NCBI GenBank assembly: GCA_903865745.1
Contig: CAIPKV010000078.1
Span: forward strand, 1 to 64,000
Direction: 5' to 3'
DNA: 64,000 nucleotides
Source: an uncultured Verrucomicrobia subdivision 3 bacterium
GTDB lineage: Bacteria > Verrucomicrobiota > Verrucomicrobiia > Limisphaerales > UBA11358
Position numbers and translations under genes: made by a program. The notes beneath the pieces were generated by a model that was not told the DNA's origin, ran no database searches, and worked only from the letters and a program-made list of their open reading frames with translations. Positions 12,813 through 47,581 of this stretch are shown here, piece after piece. How positions within the stretch are numbered: position 1 is the stretch's first letter; each line of letters starts with the position of its first letter.

Positions 12813-13412
12813 TCAGGGAGAAATTTTTTCGTGACGCGAGGGATGGCCATGCCACTTAAGCAGTACGCCAACGAAAGTTGCGTCCAAGCGCGAACTGAAT
12901 ACTTCCACAAAGGAATAGCCCCGTTTCACCGCCACCCAGAGTGAAGTGAAGAAGAGCGCGATGAAAATGGTTTGGTTCTGCCAGCCGTCCAGCTTCCACT
13001 GATATTTACAAAACCAAATGGGATGCCGGAACAGGGGCTCGGAATAACAGATCGGCCAGAGGTCGCAGATTTCCGGCCCGCGCGAGCCAAAGTAATCACA
13101 CAGCAGATGCAAGTGAAAGGTAAGCAGGCAGAGCAGCAACACCCGCTGCCGTTGCTGGGCATAAAGCGCAAATAGTATTGAAACCACCAAGGCCGCCGGC
13201 CAGCCGTGCATCAGCACATGATGATACGTTTGGTAATAATGGTACGTGCACGCTTGGCCGGAAATCCACGAACCCACCACGTCGGGAATCACGCCCAGCC
13301 CATCGATGTCCGGTACCACGCCGGCCCAGGTCACCAGTTTGCGGTCTCGCGGATTATTGGTCGTGGCTGTAGCCACCAGCCAGCTGCCAACGAGATGCGT
13401 GAGCGGCGACAT
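12813..13412 (-). CDS. Membrane-bound metal-dependent hydrolase-like protein (DUF457/YdjM)
   Basis: This 199-residue protein has the DUF457/YdjM signature: HLVGSWLVAT at the start, PDIDGLG, YHHVLMHG and a central HLLCDYFGSRGPE with the conserved His/Asp residues. At least three hydrophobic segments (around residues 70-85, 90-108 and 148-165) place it in the inner membrane. Family members are uncharacterised relatives of LexA-regulated YdjM; catalysis is unproven. It starts 11 bp after the broken GH97 gene and probably shares its transcript. Confidence 0.75.
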   Translation of the reverse strand: MSPLTHLVGSWLVATATTNNPRDRKLVTWAGVVPDIDGLGVIPDVVGSWISGQACTYHYYQTYHHVLMHGWPAALVVSILFALYAQQRQRVLLLCLLTFHLHLLCDYFGSRGPEICDLWPICYSEPLFRHPIWFCKYQWKLDGWQNQTIFIALFFTSLWVAVKRGYSFVEVFSSRLDATFVGVLLKWHGHPSRHEKISP

Positions 13413-13423
13413 TCAGCGGAGCT

Positions 13424-15361
13424 TTACTTGATGGGCGTCAGTTGCGCGACGTAGCCGCCGGCGGGGAGCAGCGTTAACTGCAACGTGCTCTTGGCGTCCA
13501 CGGTCTGCTGGTCGGCTTTGACGGCGGTGTAATCCGCGCCGTCCGGCTGGTCCGCAAAGCCATTCAGCGCCCAGCGCTTTTTACCCAGAAAATCCAGCGG
13601 CACGGTCAGCGTCGCGGCGTCATCACCATTCATCGCGGCCACATACCAGCGCGGGCCGGCGCGCCGCGCGATGACGATGGTCTTGGCCACATCGGCATTC
13701 AACACCACGGTTTCATCCCACACGGTGGGGAGGTTGCGGAAGAATTCCACACCGGGCTGGCCGCGATAATTCGCCGGGCTGTCGCACAGGACCAGCAGCG
13801 GGCTGGGATAAATAACGGTCATCGCGAGCTACCGCGCCCGCGTGCCCATGACTTGCGCGGGATAGGTGGTCTGGAAATCAGCGGGCTTACGATTCACAAA
13901 GCCGCCCGGGGTAAAATCCATCGGCCCCAGCAGCGCGCGCGTGAATGGCAGCGTGATGGTGTGCAGCGGGTTGCATTTGTTGCCGCGCAGTTTGTTATAT
14001 TCGTTGCCCATGACGCCTTCCTGCGTGATGAAGTTGGGATAGGTCCGCGCAAGTCCGGTCGGTTTATACGCGCCGTGGAAATCAACCATCAGGTGGTAAT
14101 GGGCGGCCACTTTTAGCGCGGCTTCGTACCATTGCACGGTCTCCTGGCTGTCGCTGTTCATGAAATCCACTTTCACGCCCGCCACGCCCCAGCTGGCCAT
14201 GGTGGAAAAAACTTTCTCAAAGCCGACTTTGGTCAAATCGCGCGAGTGCATCCAGATGAAGAGTTTCACGCCGTGCGCCCGGGCGTAGGCCAGCACCTCG
14301 GGCATGTTCATGTGGGGTTCCGGCACCGTGGGATCGCGCTTATACCAATTCCAATCCATGAGCTGATACGGCCAACCCATCTCGGCGGCGAAGTCGATGT
14401 ACGCTTTTTCCGAGACGGTATCGCCGCGCGCCTGCACGGCGGTGTATTGCGGTAGATTCGTATTCACGCCGGTCCACCACGGGTCCCACGCGCAGACGCC
14501 GGGCTTGACCCACGGCAAATCGCCAAGCTGGTTGGGTGTGGCGAGATTCGCGATGAGGTCGGAATTAATCAAGTCCGCCGGCGTGCGCCCAATCATCAGG
14601 ACGCGCCACGGACTGACGCGCGGCACCGCGGAAACAACGAGGCCTTTTTTATCTTTGCGCGGCGCGAGTTTGACCCCGACATTTTCCGAGCCGGTGCCGG
14701 TGCTGAACATGCCCGCCCAATCCCGCAAATCGGCTTCGGTCACGGCGACGTAAGCCGCGGGCGTGGCCACCAGCAGGGGCAGGGTGTTTTCCTGGCCGGG
14801 CGGAATGGTGCTGAGCGTGGCTTCGGGGTAATGATTCTCAGCGCAACTGGATGGCTCGCCGTACCAGCAGCGGTCATCGCCGGTGAAATGAAATTCGGTC
14901 AGCTCGTTGGTCAGCACGAAATGGCCGAGCTTGGACGCCACCGGCAAATCGTAGCGGAACGCGACGCCATCGTCGTAGGCGCGCACAATCAGGCCGAACG
15001 TGCGGTCGGCCTCGGACAATGTCAGGCGCAATTCGCGCCAGTGGTCGCGCACTTCCAGGCGCTTGCCGAAATGATTTTCCCACGTGCCATTGTGCCGCGC
15101 GGTTTTGGTTTTGGTGATGGTGGCCGTCGGGCCGAGCCGGGTGCCGTCCTGAAATTCCAGGCCCAGCCGCGAATCGTCCAGCACCGGTTTGGCCGCCAGC
15201 TCGACGCGATAATGCAAGCCGCCTTGATCCGAGACCAAGACGGTCAGCTGACCATCAGGCGAAGTCAGCCGCGCGTCGGTCGCAGGCAGCGTCGGCGTGC
15301 TGGTGTACAAAAACCCCGCCGCGAGCAGGAGGGGTGCGTGGAAATAGGGCTTTAAGTTCAT
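13424..15361 (-). pseudogene. GH97 glycoside hydrolase interrupted by an in-frame amber codon
   Basis: The reading frame from ATG 15361 runs to TAA 13424-13426 with one interruption: TAG at 13831-13829, inside GTRAR-stop-LAMTVIYPSPL. Frame and similarity continue directly through it (CDSPANY, NGDDAATLTVPLDFL), so a single C-to-T change of a Gln codon is the simplest cause. The product would be about 645 residues: signal peptide (residues 1-26), GH97 N-terminal beta domain, TIM barrel with GVAGVKVDFMNSDSQ and EGVMGNEY, and a C-terminal beta domain. The Asp of KVDFM suggests the retaining (alpha-galactosidase-like) subgroup. As it stands the enzyme lacks its C-terminal domain unless the codon is read through. 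Confidence 0.85.
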
Positions 15362-15512: not shown

Positions 15513-16568
15513 TTATTTCAAACCCTGCGCGCGCCGTAAGTCGCCGATTTCCTTGAGCCGGGCCACGAAGGCATCGGCAATCCGGCCGGCGCGGTTGGGG
15601 CCGACATCGAGCAGATAGTTCGCCTGACGGTCGTTGCACTTGTTGAGCGCGCCGACCACGTCAGCCGCGCTGCGGAGGTGGGTTTCAAGCCCGGGCTGCC
15701 AGAACCAATTACCACTGTTCACGATGGTATCGCACACCTCCGAGGGCACGGTGTTGGTAACCGGGGGGAAACCCTTCTCATTTTTGTAGATCGGGTATTC
15801 GTAACTGTAGATATCCGTTTCGCTCAACTTGTGGGAGTTGTTGGCGATGACCAGACAGTTAGGCTGGAGCTGGTGGATGAGCGCCTTGAGGTCGGCCCAC
15901 TCTTTCGTCTTAAGTTTCACCTTGTATTGATCACACCAGATTAGATCAATCGGACCGTAACGGGTGAGCAGCTCGGTGAATTCCTGGCGCATGCAGCCCG
16001 CGTAGTCGCCCTGCGCTTCGGGCGGCATGCCATGGAGGGAGGGCTGGTTCGTCGGCAACGTGTTGCCGTAACGATTGTCGTAATTGCCGGGCGCACAATA
16101 ATAGAAGCCGACCTTGAGGCCGCGCGCGCGGAAGGCGTCCACGAACTCGCGGACCACGTCGCCCTGGCCGTTCTTGAAATTCTTGAAGGCGGTGATGTCG
16201 TGCGTGGTGCCGGCACTATCCCACAACGGATAACCTTCGGTATGCTTCACGGTCAGCACGGCGTATTTCATGCCGGCCGCCTGGGCGGCCTCGGCCCACT
16301 GCCCGCAATCAAGATTGGTCGGGGCGAACGTGAGCGGATCCTCATAGCCATTGGCCCATTCCTGACCATTGAACGTCGCGATGTTGAAGTGCAGGAATAA
16401 TCCGAATTTCCAACTCAGAAAATCCGCCTGCAACTGGGCGAGCGGCTTCACCGCTGCCGCCGCCGGGTCGGGGTTTTCCGCATATCCCGAACTGACGAGA
16501 CCCAACAGCAGCCCAACGATGGACCAGACCTTAAGATTCCGCGTGAGCTTTGAGATAATATTGTGCAC
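15513..16568 (-). CDS. GH29 alpha-L-fucosidase-like enzyme
   Basis: This 351-residue protein starts at GTG 16568 with a signal peptide (hydrophobic IVGLLLGLVSSGYA, residues 17-30), so it is exported. The catalytic barrel shows WKFGLFLHFNIATF, AAQAAGMKYAVLTVKHTEG with LWDS, GFYYCAPGNYD and GPIDLIWCDQ, where the Asp sits at the place of the GH29 nucleophile. The usual HHDGF is replaced by KHTEGY, and the C-terminal beta-sandwich of full fucosidases is absent, so it is a divergent, minimal member. It lies 15 bp after purL and upstream of the GH97 gene. Fucose specificity is inferred from family only. Confidence 0.8.
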   Translation of the reverse strand: MHNIISKLTRNLKVWSIVGLLLGLVSSGYAENPDPAAAAVKPLAQLQADFLSWKFGLFLHFNIATFNGQEWANGYEDPLTFAPTNLDCGQWAEAAQAAGMKYAVLTVKHTEGYPLWDSAGTTHDITAFKNFKNGQGDVVREFVDAFRARGLKVGFYYCAPGNYDNRYGNTLPTNQPSLHGMPPEAQGDYAGCMRQEFTELLTRYGPIDLIWCDQYKVKLKTKEWADLKALIHQLQPNCLVIANNSHKLSETDIYSYEYPIYKNEKGFPPVTNTVPSEVCDTIVNSGNWFWQPGLETHLRSAADVVGALNKCNDRQANYLLDVGPNRAGRIADAFVARLKEIGDLRRAQGLK

Positions 16569-46373: not shown

Positions 46374-46874
46374 TTACTTCGCAGTTTCCGCCGCCACAAT
46401 CTTTACGCTGATGAGGCTCTGCTTGGTGACGGGGCGGTCGCCGGGATGCGTGGGCGTGGTGCCGATTTTTTCAAGTACGTCGTCGCCCTTGATGAGCTTG
46501 CCGAAGGCGGTGTATTGGCGGTCGAGGAAACGCGGGTCGCCGTGGCAGATGAAAAACTGCGAACCGGCGGAGTCGGGATGCTGGGAGCGCGCCATGGAGA
46601 GGACGCCGCGGACGTGGGGCTTGTCGTTGAACTCGGCCTTGACCTGGTGGCCGGGTCCGCCAGTGCCCCAGAGGTGCTGCTTGGAATCGTCCTTGGTGTT
46701 CGGATCGCCACCTTGGATCATAAACCCTTTGATGACGCGATGAAAACAGGTGCCGTCGTAAAAGCCGGACTTGGCGAGCTTCTTGAAATTCTCGACGTGC
46801 TTGGGCGCGACGTCCGGCCAGAATTCGAGGGTCATTTCGCCGGCGGTGGTGGTGAGGATGGCAACTTCGCTCAT
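46374..46874 (-). CDS. Peptidyl-prolyl cis-trans isomerase (cyclophilin), cytoplasmic
   Basis: This 166-residue cyclophilin has no signal peptide. Catalytic-region motifs: FHRVIKGFMIQGGDPN, a GVLSMAR segment and GSQFFICHGD. It accelerates proline isomerisation in folding proteins. It lies 30 bp downstream of a second, exported cyclophilin that is highly similar along the domain, so the two arose by tandem duplication. Confidence 0.94.
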   Translation of the reverse strand: MSEVAILTTTAGEMTLEFWPDVAPKHVENFKKLAKSGFYDGTCFHRVIKGFMIQGGDPNTKDDSKQHLWGTGGPGHQVKAEFNDKPHVRGVLSMARSQHPDSAGSQFFICHGDPRFLDRQYTAFGKLIKGDDVLEKIGTTPTHPGDRPVTKQSLISVKIVAAETAK

Positions 46875-46904
46875 ATAATTATTCTTAGATTTGAAGGGGT
46901 TGAT

Positions 46905-47531
46905 TTATTTCACGCTGTCGGCAGGCACAATCTTGATGCTGATGACGCCGACGCGCTTGAGCGGCTTGCTCGGTTCGCCGGAAGCGCTGGGGCCGACGGG
47001 CGTGGCGGCAATCTTGGCGAGGACGTCCTCACCCTTGATGAGCTTGCCGAACGCGGTGTATTGATGGTCGAGGAAGGAGGCATTGCCATCGCAAATGAAA
47101 AACTGCGAACCGGCGGAATCGGGATCCGAGCTGCGCGCCATGGAGAGGACGCCGAGTTGGTGGGAATTGTTATTGAACTCAGCCTTGATGGAATAACCGG
47201 GACCGCCGGTGCCCCATTGGTCTTCCTTGCTCGCGTCCTTGGACAGCGGGTCGCCGCCCTGAATCATGAAACCCTTGATGATGCGATGGAAACAGGTGCC
47301 GTCGTAAAAGCCCGAGCTGGAGAGCTTCTTGAAATTGGCGACGGTCGCAGGCGCGACGTCCGGCCAGAAGGTGGCGACCATCGTGCCTTCGGTCGTGGTG
47401 ATGACGGCGACTTCGCCGGCAACGCTGTTGGTTTTCACGGCCGGCGCGGCGGCGGGCGCGTTGGTGTCATCGGCTTGAACAGTGGCGACGGCCAACAAGC
47501 CGAGCGCGCAGATTAAAGAAATGGTTTTCAT
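46905..47531 (-). CDS. Peptidyl-prolyl cis-trans isomerase (cyclophilin), exported
   Basis: The protein is 208 residues from ATG 47531. Signal peptide MKTISLICALGLLAVATVQA, a short Ala/Pro linker, then the cyclophilin domain (FHRIIKGFMIQGGDPL, GVLSMARSSDPDSAGSQFF). It probably acts in the periplasm. Tandem with the cytoplasmic copy downstream. Confidence 0.93.
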   Translation of the reverse strand: MKTISLICALGLLAVATVQADDTNAPAAAPAVKTNSVAGEVAVITTTEGTMVATFWPDVAPATVANFKKLSSSGFYDGTCFHRIIKGFMIQGGDPLSKDASKEDQWGTGGPGYSIKAEFNNNSHQLGVLSMARSSDPDSAGSQFFICDGNASFLDHQYTAFGKLIKGEDVLAKIAATPVGPSASGEPSKPLKRVGVISIKIVPADSVK

Positions 47532-47581
47532 GGGCGGAAAATTTTCCATAGCGGCAGCCAAAAGTCACGCGCGGAATGAAA

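Follow-up and report, generated by a model that had tools for sequence, protein, structure and literature searches.

Retaining GH97 enzymes and interrupted GH97 genes

Retaining members of glycoside hydrolase family GH97 are marked by (K/M)(I/V)DF and HG motifs, as stated in the portion of PMC2670981 drawn on here. A GH97 fragment with stop codons has been described from Leifsonia xyli; the passage of PMC1249566 dealing with it reports two stop codons, and its author inferred a frame shift. The gene analysed here resembles that fragment, so far as the passage describes it, in being a GH97 sequence with a stop in the homologous region, but differs in that one substitution takes the place of the inferred frame shift. 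With ordinary bacterial nonsense pseudogenes it shares the single stop, a dispensable gene and intact relatives, whereas it lacks clear further decay and the assembly is the one source of its TAG.

The gene occupies positions 13424-15361 of the minus strand of the window, the stretch of 64,000 nucleotides that was analysed as a whole. Translation yields 510 residues, a TAG at 13831-13829, a further 134 residues and a TAA, all in an unchanged frame, so that the TAG is codon 511 of 645 and the sole interruption. The part before the stop (13832-15361, 510 codons) comprises an N-terminus resembling a signal peptide by eye, GH97_N (residues 32-276) and Glyco_hydro_97 (residues 281-510, profile positions 1-239 of 275), that is, the catalytic barrel minus what the model suggests is its last strand. 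The part after the stop (13424-13828, 134 codons plus TAA) holds that last strand and GH97_C, and contains an in-frame ATG (13820-13822) which starts 6 nt past the TAG and encodes a Met common to the nearest relatives. The family's three domains are therefore found in order. A family search of the gene's own genome that reads past the stop recovers the catalytic domain as one match covering 275/275 profile positions, interrupted by 1 TAG near position 239 of the profile. The only GH97 matches in this genome (3.63 Mb, 87 contigs, 96.95% complete) come from the interrupted gene. The sequence-only reading of a GH97 gene broken by a single in-frame TAG, with both halves otherwise intact, was thus borne out by translation and by the Pfam domains on either side, and a second lesion was not seen.

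The best PDB matches are the alpha-galactosidase entries 3a24, which we take to be BtGH97b, and 5e1q, with 3a24 aligning over residues 34-640 (E 9.5e-80). The retaining motifs are present as KVDF (397-400) and HG (429-430), and the gene is accordingly predicted to belong to the retaining, alpha-galactosidase-like GH97 subfamily. It is like the BtGH97b-type retaining enzymes (3a24, 5e1q) in these motifs and in its best PDB match, but differs in carrying a TAG at codon 511. The conserved catalytic and calcium-binding glutamates expected of GH97 were also found, since E153, E448 and E454, which we infer to correspond to named residues of BtGH97a, occur in the gene and in 48/48 aligned relatives. 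The full-length protein, with the TAG read through, was modelled in AlphaFold2 (mean pLDDT 90.9, pTM 0.90, 49 sequences), and in this model barrel strands lie at 288-292, 332-335, 366-372, 395-399, 425-429 and 444-448, with a poorly formed seventh at about 480-491. Codon 511 falls in helix 508-517. This helix comes after the conserved region of Asp399/Glu448/Glu454 and ahead of strand 522-526, which we read from the model as the last strand of the barrel; an all-beta C-terminal domain follows that strand. A shortened chain without this strand and without the C-terminal domain would, according to the model, leave the barrel open, and because it lacks both, the shortened product is probably inactive.

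The stop position in relatives

In tblastn searches against 63 loci, 61 alignment rows spanned the stop position, alignments falling short of it having been dropped. Two of these rows came from the window's own genome and both showed the stop, whereas a stop at this position was found in 0/59 rows from other genomes, one row having a gap there and the 59 including some genes fetched twice. The close relatives encode Gln at this place, as CAG in L034, L003, L006 and L008 and as CAA in L004, L005 and L007, which agrees with the earlier expectation of a Gln codon and answers its call for a look at close relatives, all of which are intact. In alignment A1, made up of 48 relatives chosen from 62 listed, each with an open frame of 450 residues or more, the stop column reads Gln in 30, Glu in 15, Thr in 2 and His in 1; repeats of one gene, such as L063 (near L042), were removed from A1 by hand. 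As the stop-free state of A1 is partly due to this selection, the count free of selection is that of the 59 tblastn rows. Among the matches of the genome search, an internal stop was present in 1/52 rows, that of the own genome. In the protein tree the gene groups first with L034 (support 88/91) and next with L003 (100/100). A second genome of the same species was not met among the genus genomes searched, and the nearest copies are 82-83% identical in protein, an identity far beyond chance that runs through the TAG with no change of frame, just as had been proposed from the letters alone. Both marks of a nonsense pseudogene, a stop missing from orthologues and the loss of essential sequence, are found here, essentiality being judged from the model.

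Some other GH97 loci show features of their own. In L020 (G026:C112), a more distant GH97 gene from another genome of the same genus shifts reading frame at about locus positions 2568-2574, where tblastn alignments in frames -1 and -2 abut with both queries tried; this gene, too, looks broken or mis-assembled. In L007 and L008 (G003 and G017), the GH97 reading frame continues stop-free to 1,292 and 1,291 codons, respectively, and GH97 there appears to be fused to further sequence.

The window contains 13 pairs of adjacent same-frame segments, the GH97 gene and 12 others. A single Pfam domain divided between the members of a pair was seen in 0/12 of these others, a count in which 5 members without a Pfam match would hide a split. 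One pair on the minus strand, 46377-46904 and 46908-47564, has a nearly whole cyclophilin-type isomerase domain in each segment and is, on this domain content, a putative tandem cyclophilin pair.

Age of the stop and rival explanations

Compared with L034, the gene has 2 gap columns and no frame break. The dN/dS values of the gene paired with L034, L003, L004 and L005 are 0.10-0.15 upstream of the stop and 0.16-0.33 downstream, versus 0.10-0.13 and 0.09-0.24 for pairs of intact genes among these four; these values are rough, with silent differences near saturation (pS 0.46-0.72) and a post-stop part of only 134 codons. For residues 512-645, unique amino-acid changes in the window gene and L034 number 10:5, 13:6 and 9:6 with L004, L005 and L035 as outgroups, and those in the window gene and L003 number 6:4, 12:4 and 4:7 with the same outgroups. 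None of the 18 amino-acid relative-rate tests, which combined two relatives with three outgroups and three regions, was significant, the smallest p being 0.077. Third positions account for a raw share of 0.46 of the private nucleotide changes after the stop, versus 0.53 and 0.57 in these two relatives, and for residues 512-600 the raw shares are 0.46 versus 0.80 and 0.58. There may thus be a slight loosening of constraint after the stop. Because both parts look constrained at the sequence level, because a second lesion is absent and because amino-acid changes beyond the stop show no significant excess, the stop should be either young or an error.

The explanation that we consider best, and rather probable, is that one recent nonsense substitution, at codon 511, inactivated the gene; it would have arisen in the lineage or in the assembled strain, and translation would end at the TAG. 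We infer that the TAG base is real. This inactivation is supported by a stop peculiar to the own genome, both among the genome-search matches and among the rows spanning the position, by the absence of any lesion beyond that one stop, by the patchy occurrence of GH97 across the genus and the differing near neighbours, by the position of codon 511 in its helix upstream of strand 522-526 in the model, and by signs that TAG works as a stop elsewhere in this genome, where prfA is present and a CUA tRNA was not found. However, an assembly or base-calling error would produce an identical picture, the scarcity of further decay is equally expected from an error, and the rate estimates are rough for the reasons given above. 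That the TAG is an error of sequencing or assembly, or that the consensus took up the allele of a minority strain, with the gene intact in most cells, is possible though somewhat unlikely. It would fit a lone substitution in an otherwise preserved gene, and a genome of 87 contigs and 96.95% completeness that is probably metagenome-assembled, as we judge from its nearest named relatives, which are Verrucomicrobia subdivision 3 / Limisphaerales MAGs, a group to which the window very likely belongs. Against it, stops occurred in 0/32 ABC_tran, 0/62 Response_reg and 0/10 Alpha_L_fucos matches in the three families sampled, and the faint post-stop excess of protein-changing substitutions would favour real decay, although the amino-acid tests are not significant.

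It is very unlikely that the TAG is usefully read through or that separate chains rebuild an active GH97 enzyme split within its barrel. Readthrough or suppression giving some full-length enzyme, which seems a shade less probable again when taken by itself, could account for the constrained appearance of the part after the stop, and the base after the TAG is C, whereas it is +4U that is reported to lower readthrough in the portion of PMC5289835 concerned. Programmed readthrough would nevertheless call for a stop conserved across orthologues, and no examined relative shares this one; the RNA around it has a fold z of -1.08, with 27/200 shuffles folding at least as well, so that a structured readthrough element found no support; an exact-pattern search for the stop site in viral contigs gave no match. 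The suppressor tRNA that had been suggested as a check was not found either: a CUA anticodon occurs in none of the 42 tRNAs called by ARAGORN from 43 matches (150/158 candidates scored), a set that is incomplete, as Ile-GAT and Ala-TGC were unseen in it, and loss of RF1 is contradicted by prfA (493.1 bits versus a cut-off of 423.25). Of the three options first put forward, recent inactivation and sequencing error therefore stand and readthrough finds no support. ARAGORN left a single match, L109, uncalled; this was rejected as a suppressor because it is only part of a tRNA and its anticodon loop, read by eye, contains CAT. L109 (G000:C32:40633-40689) is a 57-nt 3' part of a tRNA located upstream of a hairpin and T-run recognised by eye, and could be the attachment-site remnant of an integrated element.

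The split enzyme, in which the ribosome would stop, restart at the ATG 6 nt downstream and deliver two chains that assemble, is more improbable still. The ATG is in frame and, at -3.8, has a better Shine-Dalgarno energy than four compared gene starts (-3.2, -1.7, -1.7 and -0.2), but this energy is within the range of random 20-mers (median -2.7, 5% point -6.5), so that restart was judged weak; moreover, the Met is already present in the nearest relatives, which are stop-free, and the break would, according to the model, lie inside the barrel rather than between domains. Decoding of TAG as an amino acid by the organism is hardly conceivable and was rejected. Nothing beyond the one GH97 gene speaks for it, whereas TAG terminates three further coding segments in the window; one of these encodes an ABC transporter ATPase, with a C-terminal domain match that extends almost to the end, and another a thioesterase, with a distinct amidotransferase after it. 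In addition, prfA is present and the three domain families sampled include 0/104 stop-bearing matches. Inactivation by a young nonsense substitution remains the preferred reading, and the finding is an ordinary one whether it reflects a disabled gene or an error.

GH97 in the genus and consequences of the stop

GH97 matches were obtained in 25/59 genomes searched, the own genome included. Any GH97 was detected in 17/35 other genomes of the same genus, and a copy of the close group in 8/48 other genomes of the genus, to which G070 adds a fragment lying at the end of a contig; many of the genomes in both counts are incomplete. A DNA search of 49 genus genomes, again including the own genome, revealed two further close copies, in G069 (82% DNA identity) and in G071; as its contig equals that of L034 in length and the identity figures agree, the G069 copy is taken as the same gene as L034. 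In the window, the gene is flanked by an alpha-L-fucosidase (15513-16568) on one side and a YdjM-like membrane protein (12813-13412) on the other. Five window neighbours were sought around 8 loci from 7 close relatives, two of these loci being a single gene; the flanks searched covered about 0.3-3 kb and hence near neighbours only, and none of the five was found. The L034 copy presumably has ribosomal protein L3/L4-like sequence on one side and a LepA-like reading frame on the other, names that we give from the look of the translations. Because GH97 is patchy in the genus, its loss is plausible, and given its presence in some species only and the differing near neighbours, such a loss is probably tolerated.

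Automatic annotation would turn this locus into a truncated GH97 gene and a short orphan, and the genome's only GH97 gene is a doubtful entry for counts of sugar-degrading genes. If the stop is real, the gene serves as a reasonable illustration of gene loss in a family whose presence varies among species.
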